A stretch of 64,000 nt of DNA from an uncultured Alistipes sp. (GTDB lineage: Bacteria; Bacteroidota; Bacteroidia; Bacteroidales; Rikenellaceae). The DNA lies in contig CALUNL010000004.1 of assembly GCA_944322005.1 (NCBI GenBank), positions 1-64,000 of the forward strand. Reading direction: 5' to 3'. The translations under genes and the position numbers were made by a program. Position 1 is the first letter of the stretch, and each line of letters starts with the position of its first letter. A model generated the notes under the pieces. That model did not search any database, had not been told where the DNA came from, and worked only from the letters and a program-made list of their open reading frames with translations. Below are positions 45,260-56,629 of this stretch, one piece after another.

Positions 45260-46165
45260 ATGAAACCATTGAGAACACTATCACTCCTCCTGATGACAGC
45301 CGCAACACTGGCATTTGCCGGTTGTAGCAAAGAGGACCCACAGGGACAGCCTTCGTGGGGAGGCGGTGGCGGAGGCACGGATACGCCGAAACAACCGGGT
45401 CCATGCAGCAACATGATCGTAGCACACCGGGGAGGTTCGACTGAGGCCGGCACGACAGCTGCTCCGGACAACTCCATCTCATCACTGCAATATGCGATGA
45501 CACTCGGCTGCTATGCATCCGAATGCGATATCTATTGGACAGCCGACAATGATGTCATCGTGGCACATGCCGACAGCCAGTGCAAGATAAACGGCCTGCA
45601 CCCATGGGAGGCGACCGTAGAGGAGATACGCGCGGCCGGTTCGCTGCCAAACGGAGAGAGGATTCCGACACTCGCCGAGTACATCGACGCAGTCATGGCA
45701 CCGGGAAGCTGCACGAAACTGTGGCTCGACATAAAGAACATAACCTCACCGTCATCGCTGCCTCAATATCCGATAGAGGCATGCCGCCGGGCCTGTGAGA
45801 TAATCAAGGAGAAAGGGGCACAGAACTTCGTGGAGTTCATATGCACCGGCAATTCGACAGTCATGGCGTCATCGTTCGGACTGGCAACGGCCGAGAACAT
45901 CCCTATCGGATGGATGTCCAACTCATCGGCACAAACCTATAACTCCAAAGGTTACACGTGGGCCAATCTCTCCATCGAATACATCAGCAAAAGCGGTAAT
46001 GAAAGCGGCAAACGGACGATAGACGAGTTCTACAACCTCGGAATACAGTTGAGCGTCTTCAACGTGGACACGGATGCAGACATACAGTACTACACATCCC
46101 AGAAGGGCAAGTTGAAGGCAATCTGCACCAACTACCCTCGCAAGCTCATCAATGCGATGAAATAG
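45260..46165 (+). CDS. Glycerophosphodiester phosphodiesterase family lipoprotein
   Basis: A 301-residue lipoprotein (lipobox LAFAGC, Cys22) with a glycine-rich linker and a GDPD TIM barrel: MIVAHRGGSTE, APDNSISSLQYAM, ASECDIYWTADNDVIVAHAD (His, Glu and Asp of the metal site), LWLDIKN and the late LSVFNVDTDADIQYY. Known members release sn-glycerol-3-phosphate from glycerophosphodiesters. Its lipid anchor and position behind a SusCD locus suggest it works at the cell surface or periplasm on the imported compound. A GC-rich hairpin separates it from the Sus-like genes. Confidence 0.85.
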   Translation: MKPLRTLSLLLMTAATLAFAGCSKEDPQGQPSWGGGGGGTDTPKQPGPCSNMIVAHRGGSTEAGTTAAPDNSISSLQYAMTLGCYASECDIYWTADNDVIVAHADSQCKINGLHPWEATVEEIRAAGSLPNGERIPTLAEYIDAVMAPGSCTKLWLDIKNITSPSSLPQYPIEACRRACEIIKEKGAQNFVEFICTGNSTVMASSFGLATAENIPIGWMSNSSAQTYNSKGYTWANLSIEYISKSGNESGKRTIDEFYNLGIQLSVFNVDTDADIQYYTSQKGKLKAICTNYPRKLINAMK

Positions 46166-47072: not shown

Positions 47073-48494
47073 ATGGCTATGAACTTTACCAAATCATTTG
47101 CAAAAGTATTCTCCCATGGTTTTCTGATGCTTGCCGCAGCGGGAATGCTATCTTCATGCGAAAAGGCCGAGGCCCCGGAAGGAGGCAGCTTCGGTCCTGA
47201 TCCGGATGCTCCGTTCACATGTGAAGCGCCTACGGTATCGGCCTCCATGGCTACGCTAATCATCACGCCCGAAAGCGATTACTCCGGATACTACTATTTC
47301 GACATCATGGAGAAAGATGTATTCATAGCCGACTTCGACAACGATCGCGAAGGGATGATAGAAAGGCTCGAGATGCAGATTTAGGCAATCGGACAGCAGA
47401 ACATCGAGCTCGGAAATGTCGCCTCCATGGAGGAATTCGTACAGAACTATGTCGTCAGCGAAGGTTCCGAATCGTATGTATACAAAGGACTCGACCCGCT
47501 CACGGAGTACTGCGTATGGGCCTGCGGAATGGACCTCCAGGGAAAGGCCACCACACAGGTGTTCGTAATAGGCGAGTTCGAGACTATCGATGTCGAACAC
47601 TCAAACATGACGTTCGACATAGCATATGACCCGGCAACATACACGCTTACGGTAACTCCATCGGCAAACGAGGCTTACGTCTGGGCACATCTCTCCGCAG
47701 ATGACTATCAGACATACTTCAACTCTTCGGCCGATGAAGCTGTCAAGGATCTGATCACCAGCTACATCGAGGACGATGCCCTCGAGAGCAACCTCGTGAC
47801 CGGACCTGCATCCAAGAGCATGATCCTCAACGCCGCCGTGGGCGAGAATGTGGTGATTGCAGCCGGATACAACGACGGCATCACCACCGACATAGCAGAG
47901 TACAAGTTCAATTTCGAAGGAAATCCTTCGTCGACAATCGAGGGCGACGTGGATACGACACTCGGTTTCTCAACTTCGGCATTCTACTCCAACTGGGGAG
48001 AGCTGAAGGAGGGTCTCGACCAGGTTACGATGGTACTCAGCGACTACGAGTCTCTCGAACAGGTTTACATCGATCTCTGGATGCCTCACGGAGAGGCAAT
48101 CGCCGGAGAATACACCATCAACAACACGAACGAAGCCCGTACTGTGATAGCAGGCCGCATAACGGAATCGCTCAACCCTTCGTTCTTCGGCAAACTCGAT
48201 GAGGAGTCATGGGAGATCAAGCAGTATGCATTGCTCGAATCCGGAACGATGTCCGTATCCGGTGACGACATGACAATGATGTACACGGTGAACATCGACG
48301 CAACCTCCGGCGACATCTCCGTCAAGGTCAACTTCACGGGAATGATGTTCTCGGCCTCTTCGGCCTCGGCAAGCGTACAGCCTCGCAACCTGAGCACCGC
48401 CATCAAACTGTCGGAGAAGTCGAAGAGCTCCGCATTCGGCAAAAAATCAAAGGTTTGTGACAAGGTTTTGAAGCTGTCGTCCGCCAAGCGATAG
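47073..48494 (+). pseudogene. Lipoprotein gene interrupted by an in-frame amber codon
   Basis: One reading frame spans 47073-48494 (474 codons) but has TAG at 47382-47384. The first part encodes a signal peptide and lipobox GMLSSC (Cys29) and about 103 residues; the frame continues unchanged after the TAG and remains protein-like throughout. Downstream it has the Fn3-like strand YKGLDPLTEYCVWACG and several beta domains, ending in a lysine-rich tail. The gene resembles the lipoprotein at 32565-35195 in the KGLDPL motif and basic tail. It is most simply a recent nonsense mutant; sequencing error or readthrough are alternatives. The second part alone would lack a signal. Confidence 0.7.
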
Positions 48495-48764: not shown

Positions 48765-49571
48765 ATGTCATTCATGAACCGGTTTTCGAGAAAATACGTT
48801 GTTACGGCAGCCGATATAGACACAGACTATCGGATAACCATACATTCGGTCCTGTGCTATTTCCAGGACTGTTTCGCGCTCTATCTTGCCAAGCATCACC
48901 TTGCAGCCTTCGACCTGGCCGACCGCGACATAATGTGGGTCATCTCCGACTTCAATGTCGAACTGTCGGGAGACAAGCCTCTGTGGTCGGAGCACATAGA
49001 GGTAGAGGTATGGATTAGCGAAGTTACGACGTTGAGACTGTATGTCGATTTCAGGCTGCGGAACAACCACGGACGCATATTCGCTTCGGGCAACAGTTGC
49101 TGGAACACCGTTGTGCACTCCACCAAGCGCATCACGGCATGCGACGCCTTCGCCTCGCAACTCTCCGTGTGCGATGAACTTGCGCTCGGGGCACACCGCA
49201 GGCAGGATTTTCCCCAACCTACGGAACTTGTATCCCAGGTCACGCACAAGATAAACATCTCCGACCTCGATTTCAACGGTCATGTCGGCAACCGCAGTTA
49301 TCTGGCAATAGCGGCACAGACGGCTCCACAACAGTATGTCGCTTCACACACATTGAGATTCGTCGGTGTAAAGTTCATGCGGGAATCATTCCTGCACGAC
49401 GAAATAGTGTGCGAACTGCACCGCTGCGGCAATGAAACCGACAAATACATCCATATAATAAAACGAAGCGACGGGAATATCGCTTGCCGCATATATTCGG
49501 AATGGGGCGCAAATACCGATCAGCGTAAAATAAGCGAATGCCTGGAGCGCAACGACACGGCAACCGTATAA
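48765..49571 (+). CDS. Acyl-ACP thioesterase
   Basis: A 268-residue double hot-dog thioesterase of the plant FatA/FatB-like family, releasing fatty acids from acyl carrier protein in the cytoplasm. The first hot-dog has DTDYRITIHSVLCYFQD, WVISDFNVELSGDKPLW and EVWISEVTTLRLYVDF; the second begins near residue 160 with HKINISDLDFNGHVGNRSYL, which contains the conserved Asp, Asn and His. Length is normal. It is a single gene. Confidence 0.9.
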   Translation: MSFMNRFSRKYVVTAADIDTDYRITIHSVLCYFQDCFALYLAKHHLAAFDLADRDIMWVISDFNVELSGDKPLWSEHIEVEVWISEVTTLRLYVDFRLRNNHGRIFASGNSCWNTVVHSTKRITACDAFASQLSVCDELALGAHRRQDFPQPTELVSQVTHKINISDLDFNGHVGNRSYLAIAAQTAPQQYVASHTLRFVGVKFMRESFLHDEIVCELHRCGNETDKYIHIIKRSDGNIACRIYSEWGANTDQRKISECLERNDTATV

Positions 49572-49600
49572 GTGTTTCGCTACTCCACGCAATAAAAAGA

Positions 49601-49631
49601 CGGCCGCCGGCATCCTGTATGCCGGCGGCCG
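49601..49631. terminator. Terminator between the thioesterase and tspO-sod genes
   Basis: Perfect 13-base stem CGGCCGCCGGCAT / ATGCCGGCGGCCG. On the minus strand it is followed by TCTTTTTATT, so it mainly serves the tspO-sod gene. Confidence 0.85.
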
Positions 49632-49652
49632 CAAACATTGGTCAAGGCCGGA

Positions 49653-50750
49653 CTATCCGAGACGTGAATCGACCTTGTCCCAATCAACGATATTCCAATA
49701 CGACTTCACGAAGTCTGCACGGCGGTTGCGATAGTCGATATAGTATGCGTGCTCCCACACGTCTACCGTAAGCAGCGGACGCAGTCCGGCGCGGAGCGGA
49801 TTTCCGGCATTCGGTTCCGCCACAATGGAGAGTTTGCCACCTTCGTCGGCCACGAGCCACACCCAACCGGAACCGAACAGTCCGACAGCTTTCTCCGAAA
49901 ATTTGGCGATAAACTCATCGACGGATCCGAAATCACGTTTCAGCAACTCCTCGAGACGGGCCGGAATCGGTTTCTGCGACGGAGTGAGAGTATCGAAGAA
50001 GAAGATGTGATTCCATGTCTGTGCGGCATTGTTGTAGACGGCACCGTCCGCCTCGCAGATTATCTTTTCGATCTCCATATCCTTGTACGGAGTGCCTTCG
50101 ATCAGTCTGTTCAGATTGTCTACATAGGTGCGGAGATGTTTGCCATAATGGTATTCGAGCGTCTCCCGGCTCATTGCGGGCGACAGCGCATCCATTTCAT
50201 ATGGAAGCGCAGGTACTGTGTAAGTCATATCAATATTATTTTTAAGGTTGTCTGACAGTGTTGCGGCTACGGCGCACCTTTCACGGCCGCCGTCTCCGTT
50301 ATGGACGAGAATGTATCCGTTGAGATAGGTTGCGAACATCAGCCACAACATATACGGCACGAATAGCCACGCCGCAATACGGCTGCGGCCGTAGGCATAT
50401 ACGATATATGCGCATACGAGCACATCGAGCAGTAGTATGTCGAGCAGGCCCAGCATCGGGTTACGGAATGCGAAAAAGAGAACGCACCACATGAAATTGA
50501 CAAACAGCTGCAGCATCCACAACGCTACTAGCGACCTGTCGCCGCGGGACAGCAGATATCCGAGCGACAGCCCGACAAGCAGGTATATGACGCTCCAGGC
50601 TATCGGAAAAACAATGTTCGGCGGCGTAAGCGGCGAGCGTTCAAGTGTAGGATACCACTCCTGTATTGACCCCGACTGTATGTACGAGGCAAGCCCGCCT
50701 ACGGCAAGGCAAACCACGACAGGGACAAAATACGACAAAAACTTCTTCAT
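49653..50750 (-). CDS. TspO/MBR membrane protein fused in frame to iron-type superoxide dismutase
   Basis: A single 365-codon frame. Residues 1 to about 151 are a complete TspO/MBR protein with five membrane helices: TPPNIVFPIAWSVIYLL, LQLFVNFMWCVLFFAF and LLDILLLDVLV, closing with FATYLNGYILVHN. A linker of about 23 residues leads to residues 175-365, a complete Fe/Mn superoxide dismutase: HYGKHLRTYVDNLN, NNAAQTWNHIFFFD (the Gln is typical of iron enzymes), GSGWVWLV and DVWEHAYYIDY with the metal ligands. The SOD Met (codon 50226-50228) is preceded by an AT-rich stretch that could serve as an independent start, giving 191 residues. TspO binds porphyrins and responds to oxidative stress; SOD removes superoxide. 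I see no stop codon between the parts. Confidence 0.85.
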   Translation of the reverse strand: MKKFLSYFVPVVVCLAVGGLASYIQSGSIQEWYPTLERSPLTPPNIVFPIAWSVIYLLVGLSLGYLLSRGDRSLVALWMLQLFVNFMWCVLFFAFRNPMLGLLDILLLDVLVCAYIVYAYGRSRIAAWLFVPYMLWLMFATYLNGYILVHNGDGGRERCAVAATLSDNLKNNIDMTYTVPALPYEMDALSPAMSRETLEYHYGKHLRTYVDNLNRLIEGTPYKDMEIEKIICEADGAVYNNAAQTWNHIFFFDTLTPSQKPIPARLEELLKRDFGSVDEFIAKFSEKAVGLFGSGWVWLVADEGGKLSIVAEPNAGNPLRAGLRPLLTVDVWEHAYYIDYRNRRADFVKSYWNIVDWDKVDSRLG

Positions 50751-50913
50751 ATCTTTTGCAGTGTCATTGAAACAGCATTACAGTCCCACAACGTTACAAA
50801 ACCGATGCTTAACGGTATTAAAGATATAAAAAATATCACAATAAATATATAACTTTCGGAAAGTTCCGTCATTGCGGAATAATATACGCGACCATAAAAG
50901 GACAATAAAAGCC

Positions 50914-51933
50914 ATGAAAAACAATCTGTTAAGCGAAAAACTCGTGTTCAACGGCGATTCGGTCGCACCGACACGCCTGCGTCTGTGCAGCTACGATGCC
51001 AATGAAATGTCTCTGTGGGAAGGGTGTTCGGCCGACGAGCTCGAGACGCAACTTGTCCAAAAACGCATAAACTGGCTACAGGTATGCGGCTTCTCCGACA
51101 CGGAGACCATCCGCAGGATATGCACCTTCTTCGGCATAGATTTCCTCGTAATGCAGGACATACTCAACACCGAGCACCTGAGCAAGGTGGAGGAGCACGA
51201 CACCTACAACCTTATAATAGCTAAACAGATAACCGCCGACGACGTTCTGCACATCGGAATAGTACAGGGAGAAACATTCGTACTTACGTTTCAGGAGCGT
51301 TCCAACGGCTTCTTCGACGACGTGATACAGGCCATACGCAGCAATGCCCTCAAGTTCCGCTCCCGCCAGTCCGACTATCTTCTGACAGTGCTCATGAACA
51401 GCATAGCGGCCAACTACATGTCAGTGGCGCGAAACATCGGGGACGATCTCGATGACCTTGAGTCCGAACTGCTCTCCTCGACCGTCGACCGCGACATCGG
51501 CATACAGATACAGACACTGCGGCGCCGCTACATGGTTCTCAAACGCACTGCAATTCCGCTGAGGGAGCAGTACCAGAGGATGATCCGCGGAGACTCGCCT
51601 CTCATTCACAAAGCCAACCGCGTATTCCTCAACGACGTGAACGACCATCTGGCCAACGTTGCGCAGAGCGTGGACATATGCCGCGAGACGCTCTCCTCGC
51701 TCATGGACCTCTACATCTCCAACAACGACCTTCGGATGAACGACATCATGAAGCGCCTGACGATCGTATCGACGATATTCATCCCCCTGACATTCCTTGC
51801 GGGCGTATGGGGCATGAACTTCAAGTACATGCCGGAACTCGAATGGCGCTACGGATATCCGGTGGCATGGGCCGTGATGATTGTAATCGGAGTGGTGGTG
51901 TATCTGTTCTTCCAGACCCGGAAATGGAAATAG
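50914..51933 (+). CDS. corA: CorA-type magnesium/divalent cation transporter
   Basis: A 339-residue pentameric channel subunit. The large cytoplasmic N-terminal domain has WLQVCGFSDTETIRRI and the long helices around DDLDDLESELL; two C-terminal membrane helices carry the signature GVWGMNFKYMPE (GMN) between them. The ATG at 50914 is preferred to a TTG 14 codons earlier, which lacks family match. It is divergent from tspO-sod. Confidence 0.95.
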   Translation: MKNNLLSEKLVFNGDSVAPTRLRLCSYDANEMSLWEGCSADELETQLVQKRINWLQVCGFSDTETIRRICTFFGIDFLVMQDILNTEHLSKVEEHDTYNLIIAKQITADDVLHIGIVQGETFVLTFQERSNGFFDDVIQAIRSNALKFRSRQSDYLLTVLMNSIAANYMSVARNIGDDLDDLESELLSSTVDRDIGIQIQTLRRRYMVLKRTAIPLREQYQRMIRGDSPLIHKANRVFLNDVNDHLANVAQSVDICRETLSSLMDLYISNNDLRMNDIMKRLTIVSTIFIPLTFLAGVWGMNFKYMPELEWRYGYPVAWAVMIVIGVVVYLFFQTRKWK

Positions 51934-52014: not shown

Positions 52015-53472
52015 TCAGGCGGCCTTCTCCTCCTCGTAGCCGTCGGCCTTGGCATTCCACATGGTCAGCAGTGTGAGCATTCCAAGGAAAGCCATCACCA
52101 GAATGGTGACATATGCGCCATGCCAGCCGTAATGCTGTGCGACGTATCCGAAACCGACTCCGGAAACCAGCGTGCTCGCATAACCGAATATGCCGAGGAT
52201 TCCGTTGGCCGTTGCCGAGGCACGGTTCGTGGCCTGATTGGCTGCGGCCACTCCCAGAAGCGCCTGCGGGCCATAGATGAAGAATCCGATGAACATGAAC
52301 GGAATCATCATCACCCACCACGGCGAACCGGCAGGAACCGCCCAGAACAGCAGGAACGAACATATGGTTCCTATCATGCAGAAGACGCATGTGCGGTGGG
52401 CCCTGTTCTTGAATACGTGGTCCGTAACCCATCCGGCGACAACCATTCCGATGTTTCCACCTATGAATTCGAATACGATACAGAGCGTCGTCGCCATGGC
52501 AAGCGACAGTCCCTTCGACTCCGTAAGCAGCGTCGGGCCCCAGTCAAGAGCCGCAAAACGCACCACGTAAACGAAGAAGTTGGTTGCGGCAAGCGTCCAG
52601 ATAAGCCTGTTGCCGAAGACCTTGCGGCGGATGAACGCCTTGTACTCGGCGCTCTCCTCCGGCGTACGGACGATTACCTTCTTTTTGCCGACCACCTCCG
52701 GCAGACCGACATCCGACGGAGAGTCCTTCAATGTCAGGAACAGACCTATCGAGCCGATTAAGGCAATGACGGCCGGGATTATGAAGCACCAGCGCCATGC
52801 CATATAGTGGCTTGCAAACGATATCACCTTCGGATCGGACACCTCAAGTCCGAGGTTGGAGGCTATGGAGGCCACCACCTCCGGATTGCCGCTCATGTCG
52901 ATTCCGAGGTGCGGCATGATATACCAGCCGCAAAGTCCGAACACCAGGCCGGCGCCTATCGAGTGCGACATGTTCCATATGGACATCTTGGTGGCCAGCT
53001 CCTTCGGAGGGATCCACTGCGTAAGCGTCTTCGTACACGGAGGCACTCCCATTCCCTGCAGGAAGCCGTTAATCACCCAGGCTATACCCATGAAATATAC
53101 CAGTACACCCGTAAATGTGAGCTCGGCTCCGAAACGCGAGGCCATCGCGACAATCCATCCGGCCACCATGTCACTGCAGCCGAACAGGATGTTCACCACG
53201 GCGCACAGGAACAGTCCGAGCGACATCACGATACGCGCACTGTTACGGTCGGAAATGATACCGTTGACAAAGCGCGACAGTCCGTATATCACGCCATTGA
53301 GCGTGAGGAAGAGTCCGAGCTGAACCTTCGATATTCCGAAGTCGGCCGTCAGGCCCGGCATTGCTATCGAGAAGTTCTTGCGGACAAAGTAATAGAGCGC
53401 ATACCCCACCATCGTCACGATGATGGTGCGCACCTGCCAGTACTTGAATGATTTCAGTGTCTTTTCAACCAT
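52015..53472 (-). CDS. Organophosphate:phosphate antiporter (GlpT/UhpT-like MFS)
   Basis: A 485-residue, 12-helix transporter of the OPA branch of the major facilitator superfamily. The early YYFVRKNFSIAMPGL (with the family arginine and lysine), LTLNGVIYGLSRFVNG and VINGFLQGMGVPPCTKTL are typical; a second conserved arginine lies in VYVVRFAALDWGP. Members exchange glycerol-3-phosphate, hexose phosphates or phosphoglycerates for phosphate. It follows the glycerol-1-phosphate dehydrogenase gene by 12 bases, so a glycerol phosphate is the likely substrate, although this cannot be read from the sequence. Confidence 0.88.
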   Translation of the reverse strand: MVEKTLKSFKYWQVRTIIVTMVGYALYYFVRKNFSIAMPGLTADFGISKVQLGLFLTLNGVIYGLSRFVNGIISDRNSARIVMSLGLFLCAVVNILFGCSDMVAGWIVAMASRFGAELTFTGVLVYFMGIAWVINGFLQGMGVPPCTKTLTQWIPPKELATKMSIWNMSHSIGAGLVFGLCGWYIMPHLGIDMSGNPEVVASIASNLGLEVSDPKVISFASHYMAWRWCFIIPAVIALIGSIGLFLTLKDSPSDVGLPEVVGKKKVIVRTPEESAEYKAFIRRKVFGNRLIWTLAATNFFVYVVRFAALDWGPTLLTESKGLSLAMATTLCIVFEFIGGNIGMVVAGWVTDHVFKNRAHRTCVFCMIGTICSFLLFWAVPAGSPWWVMMIPFMFIGFFIYGPQALLGVAAANQATNRASATANGILGIFGYASTLVSGVGFGYVAQHYGWHGAYVTILVMAFLGMLTLLTMWNAKADGYEEEKAA

Positions 53473-53484
53473 AAGGCGTCCCGA

Positions 53485-54828
53485 TTACTTTACCTCCCAG
53501 ACGCCGCCCTTGCCGAACAGACGGTCGACAAGCTCATCCATGTATCCGCAGCGGTACACTATATCTATATTCGCAAAGCGGCTTCTCATGTAAGGGATAT
53601 AGGTGAATGTCTTACGGAAACGCTCGCGGGTGACGCCGATGTGTTCCGGCTCGTACGGAGCACCGACCAGGCGCAGATTCTCGCGCACCTGCTCGAACGG
53701 TATTATCTGATTGCGTATCTGCTCCTTCAGGGTCGGCCATGCAGCCTTGAGAGCCTCGAGCTGACGGCGCAGCTCACCCTTCTCCACATACTTTTCACGC
53801 GTCTCCTTCAATGCACGTGCAAGGTGTCCTGGCTTGCCTTCGAATATTTCACGCACCTCACGCTCCTGCTCGTCCCAGCTCTTCCATGCCGCAACGCACT
53901 TGTCGACATCGAGCGATGCGATATCCTTCTCGAGAAGGAACTCGATGGATGCCGTGGAGGCCAGCGTTCCGATACCCACCTTGAAGCCGTGCGACACATG
54001 CTTGCCCTCGAAGCAGAGGTTCTCCATGTCCCAGCAGTGGGAGAACTGGTGCTCGGTTCCCGATGCCGGACGGCTCGACTGAAGCGCCTGCATTGCGAAA
54101 CCGCTCATAAGCAGACCCTCCGACAGGCGCTCGGTCATCTCGACATCGCCTGCATGTACGGCAGCCGGTGCAGCCAGGGACTCACGCAGGCCATCCTGCA
54201 CGAGGTCCCACGAGAAACGGTCTATCTTCTCGTTGCCCGTTACGTCAGCAAACATCCAGTCGGCACCCGCAGGAATCTTTGCGATGAGATCGGCGTATCC
54301 CGATGCGGCAAGCTCCTTCGGAGCGGCTGCAGCGATGACCGGATCCATTACGAAGCCATAAGGGGCAGGACAATTGAAGGTCTGCTTGTTGCCATCCTTG
54401 GTTATGGATGCTCCGTAAGCCGTGTATCCGTCCATCGAAGCGGCCGTGCCGACGCACATGTACTTGCGGCCGACAAGGTGCGACACATATTTCGTAAGGT
54501 CGTTTATAACACCCGATCCTACGGCAATTGCGCAGGCGTCCGTAGCATCCATATGTGCCTTGAGCTGCTCTACGTATTTCCACTCGGCATAGAGTTCCGG
54601 GTCTGTGAATATGAACGGCTCGTCATGAGGGACATTTGCCGATTCGAGCGATGCCGCAACGGCCTTTCCCGCAACCTCCCATGTATTGAGGTCGGCAACG
54701 ATTATCGCCTTTTTCCCCGGGAACAATTTAAGGAACATCTCGGCGGTACGCGCTACGGTTCCCTCGCCGATAATCAAATCTTTGGTGTCGGTAGTGCGCT
54801 TAAGCGCATTTTCAACTTTATTGCTCAT
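53485..54828 (-). CDS. araM: sn-glycerol-1-phosphate dehydrogenase (AraM/EgsA family)
   Basis: A 447-residue cytoplasmic NAD(P)-dependent enzyme interconverting sn-glycerol-1-phosphate and dihydroxyacetone phosphate. Motifs include the nucleotide-binding AIAVGSGVINDLTKYVS, CVGTAASMDGYTAYGAS, an Asp/His metal site in ASGYADLIAKIP and EHQFSHCWDMENL, and the later GKHVSHGFKVGIGTL. It is longer than B. subtilis AraM (about 394) by a C-terminal extension. It lies between araD and an organophosphate transporter in one operon; in other Bacteroidetes araM goes with arabinose genes, so arabinose regulation is an alternative context. Confidence 0.9.
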   Translation of the reverse strand: MSNKVENALKRTTDTKDLIIGEGTVARTAEMFLKLFPGKKAIIVADLNTWEVAGKAVAASLESANVPHDEPFIFTDPELYAEWKYVEQLKAHMDATDACAIAVGSGVINDLTKYVSHLVGRKYMCVGTAASMDGYTAYGASITKDGNKQTFNCPAPYGFVMDPVIAAAAPKELAASGYADLIAKIPAGADWMFADVTGNEKIDRFSWDLVQDGLRESLAAPAAVHAGDVEMTERLSEGLLMSGFAMQALQSSRPASGTEHQFSHCWDMENLCFEGKHVSHGFKVGIGTLASTASIEFLLEKDIASLDVDKCVAAWKSWDEQEREVREIFEGKPGHLARALKETREKYVEKGELRRQLEALKAAWPTLKEQIRNQIIPFEQVRENLRLVGAPYEPEHIGVTRERFRKTFTYIPYMRSRFANIDIVYRCGYMDELVDRLFGKGGVWEVK

Positions 54829-54860
54829 AAGGCTTTTGTTTTAATATAAATTATGTTGTT

Positions 54861-55562
54861 CTATTCCTTCTCTGTCTTTACCTGTCCGTAATAGGCGTTC
54901 TTGCCATGCTTGCGCTCGTAATGCTTCATCACGATGTTGCGGTTCATGGATATTGACGGATTTATCGAGAGCGACAGTGCCGCCATGCGTGCCACCTCTT
55001 CGAGTACCACGGCATTGTGAAGCGCATCCGCAGCGGAAGTTCCCCAGGCGAACGGTCCATGGTGCTTGACGAGCACGGCCGGCGTATGCATCGGGTCTAT
55101 CTCCCGGAAACAGTCGGCGATGACATCGCCCGTGGAGGCCTCGTAGGAGTCCCTGATCTGCTCGGCGCTCATCTCCTCCGTACACGGAATATCGCAGTAG
55201 AAGTGGTCGGAATGGGTCGTTCCTATGTTGGGGATCGGAATACCCGCCTGCGCCCATGCAGTGGCATATGTGGAATGGGTATGCACTATACCGCCGACTT
55301 CGGGGAAATGACGGTATATCGACACGTGGGTCGGCGTGTCCGACGACGGGCGCAAGTGTCCCTCGACGACCTTCCCGTCGAGATCAACGACAACCATGTC
55401 GTCTGCGCACATCTCATCATACGAGACTCCGCTCGGCTTGATTACCACAAAGCCGCTCTTACGGTCTATTGCCGAGACATTGCCCCACGTAAGAATAACA
55501 AGGTTGTGCCTGACCAAATCGAGGTTTGCCTCAAGCACCTTCTTCTTCAAATCTTCCAGCAT
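54861..55562 (-). CDS. araD: L-ribulose-5-phosphate 4-epimerase
   Basis: A 233-residue class II aldolase-fold epimerase converting L-ribulose-5-phosphate to D-xylulose-5-phosphate. Motifs: [11 protein letters not shown], the phosphate-binding [27 protein letters not shown], the zinc site [14 protein letters not shown], and KHHGPFAWG with the third histidine. It is the first gene of the operon with araM and the OPA transporter. No araA or araB is in the window. Confidence 0.95.
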
Positions 55563-55651
55563 ATCTGTTCTTATTATTAATTTATCCTCTTGACGCGCCC
55601 CATGCGCAACTTCTCAACCGGAATATGGCATGAAAAGGCATTCGCAACTCA

Positions 55652-55659
55652 CAAAAATA
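55652..55659 (-). promoter_or_regulatory. -7 promoter box of the araD operon
   Basis: The minus strand reads TATTTTTG (TAnnTTTG), about 90 bases before araD. The surrounding 55563-55766 is AT-rich and holds no gene. Confidence 0.35.
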
Positions 55660-55766
55660 GCAATAAAAAATTAAAAACAAGAAAATAGAACAACAAAAGA
55701 AAAGCATTATGACATGTTGTTGCTATTTTTTCGTATTATATTACACAAATTCATAACCGTTCACAA

Positions 55767-55794
55767 AAGAAAAGCCGGATGCAAGACATCCGGC
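55767..55794 (-). terminator. Terminator of the second GDPD gene
   Basis: Perfect 8-base stem GCCGGATG / CATCCGGC with a 5-base loop, followed on the minus strand by TTTTCTTTTG. It separates the gene from the araD operon. Confidence 0.8.
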
Positions 55795-55812
55795 CTCCGT
55801 ATCCAAAATCCG

Positions 55813-56595
55813 TCATTTCTTCGCCGACACGGACTCAAGATAAGCCTTCATGCGATCCGGGAAATCAGTGGATATATATGTCACCCCATGCTTTATGGCC
55901 CAGTCGGTGACCTCCTCGTTCTCGACCATCCACAACGTTGTGGCAATGCCGAGTTCGTTGGCCTGCGACACTATCTCCGGACGGTTCATCATCACGTTGA
56001 GATTGTACGACAGTCCGCCGAATCCCTCCTTCTTCGCCACCTCGGCATCGACACTCGTCCAGAGGTTGCTCGACACGTATGTTATGCAGTTTTCCGGAGC
56101 CAGACGCACGAATTCGCGACATGCGTGACGGCTGAACGAGATGAACTCCATCTGCTCCATCACGCCGATCTCCTTGCAGAGAGCCACCACCTTTTCAGCC
56201 GCTTCGGTCTCGAGCTGCGGCGTTGCATGCTTCTTGAGTTCGAGAATCAGTTTCGTCTTCGGGTCCTTCTTGCCCTGCTCGAGCCACTGGCGCAGGGTCG
56301 GTATCTTGTGGCCGTTCTTAAGTATGACCTGCGATATCTCGGCCCAAGAATTTTTCTGGGCGTCGAGTTCCGAATTAATTTTCGGTCCATGGAATACTAT
56401 CAACTCACCGTCGGATGTCATGTTTACATCGAACTCAACACCGTAAACGCCGAGGCGCTGGGCATTGGCAAGGCTGGAGATGGTGTTCTCTTCCGAACCC
56501 GGAGTCTTGTAGAATCCTCTGTGTGCAACGATTTTAGGTTGTGCGGCTGCCGACACGGCAATGGCCGACAAAAGTACTATAAGAATCTTTTTCAT
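55813..56595 (-). CDS. Glycerophosphodiester phosphodiesterase, exported
   Basis: A 260-residue GDPD with a signal peptide (KKILIVLLSAIAVSAAA). The TIM barrel shows KIVAHRGFYKTPGSEENTI, GVEFDVNMTSDGELIVFHG (the Glu, Asp and His of the metal site), LILELKKH and the late ATTLWMVENEEV and YISTDFPDR. It cleaves deacylated phospholipids to glycerol phosphate and an alcohol in the periplasm. ATG 56595 is preferred over an upstream TTG. It has its own terminator but neighbours the araM/OPA operon on the same strand. Confidence 0.93.
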   Translation of the reverse strand: MKKILIVLLSAIAVSAAAQPKIVAHRGFYKTPGSEENTISSLANAQRLGVYGVEFDVNMTSDGELIVFHGPKINSELDAQKNSWAEISQVILKNGHKIPTLRQWLEQGKKDPKTKLILELKKHATPQLETEAAEKVVALCKEIGVMEQMEFISFSRHACREFVRLAPENCITYVSSNLWTSVDAEVAKKEGFGGLSYNLNVMMNRPEIVSQANELGIATTLWMVENEEVTDWAIKHGVTYISTDFPDRMKAYLESVSAKK

Positions 56596-56629
56596 AAACA
56601 AGGTTTCAAGTTTTCGGTTTCATGTCTGC

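Follow-up and report, generated by a model that had tools for sequence, protein, structure and literature searches.

An in-frame fusion of TspO to superoxide dismutase, shared within one bacterial genus and with a second family, and its predicted membrane-anchored and free enzyme forms

How might a tspO gene and a superoxide dismutase (SOD) gene have come to be read as one frame, and which enzyme forms would such a gene supply? The question is raised by the 64,000-nucleotide stretch of DNA analysed here (the window), whose minus strand carries an open reading frame that runs from an ATG at 50750 to a TAG ending at 49653, with zero internal stops in its 365 codons (Table 1). Three Pfam domains score above their cut-offs in this frame: TspO_MBR (PF03073) at residues 11-147 (134.4 bits, cut-off 24), Sod_Fe_N (PF00081) at residues 176-255 (90.8 bits, cut-off 27) and Sod_Fe_C (PF02777) at residues 265-363 (129.1 bits, cut-off 20.9). 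The folds of both halves are thus assigned by homology. A sequence-only reading of this DNA had described a single uninterrupted frame holding a full iron-type SOD, and the frame together with these domain matches bears this out; its linker of about 23 residues and its free SOD of 191 residues likewise agree with the domain limits and with an internal Met at residue 175. We consider it probable that this is an old, selected tspO-sod fusion that would give a membrane-anchored SOD and, likely, also a free SOD from the internal ATG.

Table 1. Positions of the fusion gene, its parts and its neighbours in the window
Feature	Position	Strand	Basis or remark
tspO-sod fusion gene	49653..50750	-	365 codons and TAG stop; open frame, Pfam
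TspO/MBR part, residues 1-151	50298..50750	-	Pfam, alignments, hydropathy
Linker, residues 152-174 (about 23 residues)	50229..50297	-	domain limits
Candidate second start, internal ATG, residue 175	50226..50228	-	-24..-1 = GACAACCTTAAAAATAATATTGAT
Fe/Mn superoxide dismutase part, residues 175-365	49656..50228	-	Pfam, alignment
Strong terminator-like hairpin with 14 pairs and a T tail, directly 3' of the SOD stop	49600..49632	-	hairpin scan
CorA-like Mg2+ transporter, divergent neighbour	50872..51933	+	Pfam
Acyl-ACP thioesterase, convergent neighbour	48765..49571	+	Pfam
MFS transporter, near neighbour	52015..53472	-	profile matches

Is the fusion confined to this genome? With the window protein as query, both domains were matched in one gene in 12 of 101 genomes of the same genus. 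A family search of 268 genomes, in which the number belonging to this genus (180) was taken from the numbering of the genome handles, placed the fusion in 19 of those 180 among the matches listed, ranked by E-value, and in none of the 88 genomes from 21 other genera among the matches listed, which reach far below the fusion scores. When a sample of the order (393 genomes) was queried with an alignment of the window protein and 18 same-genus fusions (A1, 19 rows), three further fusions appeared, all in one genus (g90) of another family (f69); of the seven genomes of that family, three are fused, one has both genes side by side and three are without a match. No fusion was added by a sample of the class (395 genomes; among the matches listed, to E 1e-60) or of the phylum (395 genomes). 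These samples overlap, and all lie within one phylum. The set considered below therefore consists of 22 fusions, 19 from the same genus and three from f69/g90. In A1, the 18 other same-genus proteins show 55-62% identity to the window protein; for the three from f69 the identity is 59-60%. Four loci come from records bearing the names Bacteroidales, Bacteroidaceae or Alloprevotella, and in these an SOD but no TspO was found; such SOD relatives suggest that the genomes with the fusion belong to the Bacteroidales. The comparison of relatives for fused or separate genes, which had been proposed with the sequence-only reading, has thus returned 21 other fusions and two unfused adjacent pairs.

The linker itself is informative. 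From the TspO part to the SOD core it measures 21-33 residues, always in frame, and its sequence is poorly conserved; the changes in length have kept the frame, as would be expected if a fused protein is made. Over the 22 fusions, the 608 linker codons contain 0 stops in the coding frame; the remaining forward frames contain 29 and 30, and base composition would predict about 28. Because the 22 genes were picked by unbroken matches, open frames were favoured, and the zero count arises partly by selection. In the window, the linker is AT-rich ahead of the SOD Met and occupies the place of the gap between tspO and sod in the two unfused pairs, in keeping with its earlier interpretation as a former intergenic region. 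The same resemblance might be taken to favour an assembly or sequencing error, or the recent loss of a stop codon in a single strain. We give this reading practically no credence: the 21 other fused genes, which come from separate genomes and have a stop in none of their linkers, rule it out. A recently lost TspO stop, as had been suggested, does not fit an architecture common to 18 more genomes of the genus and three of another family at about 55-63% identity, and the restored TspO stop in the linkers of other strains that had been named as a refutation of the fusion was seen in none of the 22.

What did the locus look like before the fusion? In genome G101, of the same genus, a tspO gene is followed by a sod gene after a gap of 49 nt, and in G335, of family f69, after a gap of 29 nt; both pairs have the gene order and gene families of the fusion, but here tspO and sod are two genes that end at separate stops and are out of frame with each other. 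Besides the fusions, only these two genomes show neighbouring tspO and sod genes within the flanks examined. They look like the pre-fusion state, and they may also have arisen by the splitting of a fusion. The SOD tree (62 rows, built with a quick method) puts the G335 SOD with the f69 fusions (support 92) and the G101 SOD with separate SODs, so the G101 pair may have formed independently; the G101 TspO joins the f69 fusions in the tree of TspO sequences (51 rows). The basal branches of both trees are weak. A single SOD clade of all 22 fused rows was not rejected (p-AU 0.36). A clade of the fused TspO rows alone was rejected (p-AU 6e-22); a clade of these rows together with seven TspO-only genes was not (p-AU 0.198). 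One origin of the fusion, not being rejected, would be compatible with both trees. We envisage that a tspO gene and the sod gene following it became one frame in Bacteroidales-like bacteria, and that the fusion was inherited within one genus; it is present also in one genus of another family, and it may have been transferred between the two families.

The seven TspO-only genes point to a later event. Nine genomes of the genus had TspO as their sole match in the 101-genome search, and the genes of seven of them branch among the fusions: a group of 29 TspO rows (support 89) has these seven and 20 of the 22 fused rows among its members, and outside it lie the TspO-only genes of G044 and G048 and the fused loci L004 and L033. 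One of the seven, L067, falls inside a group with seven fusions (support 99) and has flanking genes in common with the fused loci L006, L009, L010, L013 and L037; four others (L064, L065, L066 and L068) have the same upstream gene as the fused loci L011 and L038. Thus, for five of the seven, at least one flanking gene is common to fused loci. A search with the window protein gave no SOD match in the seven genomes, and behind the TspO-only genes no convincing SOD remnant was found (L066, E 0.072 on the reverse strand; L069, E 0.18 over 14 residues); because these genomes are 73-92% complete, the absence of an SOD from elsewhere in them is uncertain. Since the fused-only clade is rejected, the TspO-only genes lie among the fusions and five have shared flanks, the SOD half has probably been lost in place from these seven genes.

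In the window's own genome (G000, 95.7% complete), no TspO and no Fe/Mn SOD was found besides the fusion, which rules out an extra copy there. Searches of G000 for Cu/Zn SOD, superoxide reductase (desulfoferrodoxin) and ferrochelatase gave no match. As ferrochelatase was not found, the cell is probably unable to finish haem by the usual route, and any ligand of TspO may be haem or porphyrin that the cell scavenges.

How complete is the TspO half? Five hydrophobic peaks lie within residues 1-150 (hydropathy, judged by eye), and like the solved bacterial TspO proteins (4ryi, 8e7x, 4uc1) this half belongs to the TspO/MBR family; residues 30-147 align with 4ryi (54.1 bits), with W52 and W136 falling on Trp. 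Taken with the TspO_MBR match, this upholds the earlier description of a full five-helix TspO. Both tryptophans are invariant across the 19 rows of A1, and we take them to be the Trp pair implicated in porphyrin breakdown in TspO. Porphyrin or haem binding by this half is putative; the two Trp positions are kept. The NCBIfam equivalog for TspO (NF047825) gave 82.8 bits against a cut-off of 180, which places the window half in the TspO family but outside that equivalog. In contrast to bacterial TspO, the fusion continues after the last helix with the linker and the enzyme, whereas the nine separate tspO genes examined stop at most about six residues past the last conserved Asn. The membrane tethering of the SOD is predicted from the TspO half. 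On which side would it lie? By the positive-inside count, the mean number of K+R is about 5.6 on the N-terminal side and, on the other side, 2.4 without the linker and 4.9 with it, so that the charges of the loops point to an outside C-terminus if the linker is left out and nearly balance if it is counted. In Rhodobacter and Pseudomonas, excerpts of two papers place the TspO C-terminus toward the cytoplasmic side, an orientation that is disputed for Pseudomonas (PMC4237140, PMC8243069); the latter excerpt also describes the mode of action of TspO as still unclear in many cases.

The SOD half, too, keeps the residues examined. H201, H248, D330 and H334, together with Q244, are invariant across the 19 rows of A1, and the three His and the Asp are presumably the metal ligands, by homology to E. 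coli SodB. Superoxide dismutase activity is a prediction from homology. The best-scoring of the SOD models, the NCBIfam equivalog superoxide dismutase [Fe] (NF007832), gave 229.9 bits against 348, so the window SOD lies outside that equivalog. The motif in the N-terminal domain is NNAAQ, and the XD-2 position is T328. In the excerpt of PMC10172142, the SodFM2-like rule for Fe preference is given as a Gln in the N-terminal domain and Thr or Val at XD-2, a combination that the window SOD has; the Gln in NNAAQ and the Thr at XD-2 therefore suggest that it prefers Fe. NNAAQ is found in all 22 fusions, and XD-2 is Thr in seven, Val in seven, Cys in seven and Ala in one. The fused loci with Cys at this metal-tuning position are L006, L007, L009, L010, L012, L013 and L037; the residues named for XD-2 in the same excerpt are G, A, T and V, Cys not being among them. 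The best solved relatives are 8avm (236.8 bits) and 8avl (233.5 bits), which align over residues 177-364 with the metal ligands in register. The structure search names both only as Superoxide dismutase [Fe]; we infer that they are the SodFM2 enzyme of Bacteroides fragilis, since the excerpt of PMC10172142 reports crystals of it and of a mutant. Compared with a B. fragilis-type SOD, the window SOD is fused to TspO and has Thr at XD-2, where the wild-type B. fragilis enzyme has Gly (PMC10172142, excerpt). In the alignment XD-2 is Gly in 8avl and Thr in 8avm, so 8avm is probably the mutant. In one fused locus (L038, genome G175), the SOD frame is shifted near the C-terminus, at about locus position 2514; this could reflect either a mistake in the assembly or an SOD half in decay.

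Would the gene also give a free SOD? In 19 of the 22 fusions, a Met precedes the SOD core, counted from the L of its LPY motif, by 7-12 residues; in L013, L035 and L036 there is none at -7 to -12, and the only Met is at -3. The 20 bases upstream of the linker Met have an A fraction of 0.458, compared with 0.195 for 167 Met codons within the two domains, 0.352 at 391 other linker codons (the linkers are A-rich throughout) and 0.383 at 27 standalone sod starts, at least two of which were apparently mis-chosen because the farthest ATG was used. The folding energy of the 40 surrounding bases is -2.0 kcal/mol at the linker Met, -7.3 at domain Met codons, -3.8 at other linker codons and -1.8 at standalone sod starts. 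The presence of A at -3 did not distinguish the linker Met from other linker codons (p 0.47), and, the rows being related, the p-values of this comparison overstate significance. In Bacteroidetes, initiation relies on upstream A and low structure, and the Shine-Dalgarno sequence is naturally absent (PMC6847099, excerpt). Because the Met is kept, its context is A-rich and weakly folded, and initiation in Bacteroidetes works in this manner, we think that both forms are made, with membrane-bound and free SOD together as the likeliest arrangement; the dual translation once raised as a possibility gains support from the same evidence.

Two other arrangements were weighed against this one. The full-length fusion alone might be made, with the linker Met a relic and all SOD bound to the membrane; the frame kept through the linker agrees with this, as do the three of 22 genes that have lost the usual Met and stay fused, but the retention of a Met with start-like context in the other 19, despite poorly conserved linkers of changing length, makes it unlikely in our judgement. 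Appreciably less probable still is that the fusion is cut in the linker, or merely couples the translation of two proteins that act separately. A linker variable in sequence and length would suit such a flexible joint; however, no conserved cleavage motif was seen by eye in the aligned linkers of A1, and for coupling an unfused pair such as that of G101 or G335 would suffice.

According to the arrangement that we favour, translation from the first ATG would give the 365-residue protein, in which the five-helix TspO part would anchor an Fe-preferring SOD at the membrane and so place it next to a porphyrin- or haem-binding protein. Ribosomes would likely start also at the internal ATG (50228), and one gene could thus supply membrane-bound and soluble SOD. 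The protein would probably serve to clear superoxide at the membrane, or close to it, whenever these bacteria, presumably anaerobes, are exposed to oxygen. More tentatively, and with rather more doubt than conviction, we entertain two SOD pools from alternative starts with a TspO half that is more than an anchor: it might set the sole SOD beside the porphyrin or haem site, where reactive oxygen would arise, or porphyrin sensing by it might control the SOD. If true, the fusion would mark a direct function of TspO in superoxide metabolism that is split between separate genes elsewhere. TspO has long been suspected of a part in the defence against oxidative stress. Its conserved fusion to the only SOD found in a genome provides direct evidence that TspO and superoxide dismutase are functionally linked, and a single protein allows TspO ligands and SOD activity to be measured jointly. 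It would also be a natural membrane-anchored SOD, as predicted, with a possible built-in soluble form.

The arrangement had been called new, and the fusion stands as unusual. What is new is that the two are joined, how old the fusion is and that it serves as the only SOD found in the genome; taken alone, each half is an ordinary member of a known family. Among the matches listed from the open-licence PMC literature, no publication on a TspO-SOD fusion was found by title or abstract start. In PMC10172142, the string 'tspo' most likely comes from the word 'hotspots'. In one passage of that paper, fusion domains, not named there, were left out of SOD constructs, so others may have noticed the architecture.

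The surroundings of the gene are less constant. The hairpin scan of the fusion locus gave five terminator-like hairpins against a mean of 1.4 in shuffles; one follows the SOD stop (Table 1), the other four lie inside the TspO part, and none is in the linker. Six other loci examined have a homologue of the MFS transporter gene in their flank. Of these, L003 alone resembles the window in having it upstream and on the strand of the fusion; in the remaining five it is downstream, in the opposite orientation. As its position differs in five of six relatives, the window locus is only loosely conserved. At 47073-48494 (+), a lipoprotein-like frame has one in-frame stop at 47382-47384, beyond which that frame stays open as far as 48494; the gene may be broken, there may be two genes, or the stop may be an error. 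The genes near the fusion at 52015-56601 (-) include a glycerol-3-phosphate-type MFS transporter, and those at 52015-56601 (-) and 45260-46165 (+) a glycerol-1-phosphate dehydrogenase-like protein, an AraD-like epimerase and two glycerophosphodiester phosphodiesterase-like proteins. These matches, all below the NCBI cut-offs except those to AraD, suggest a region for glycerophosphate use near the fusion.
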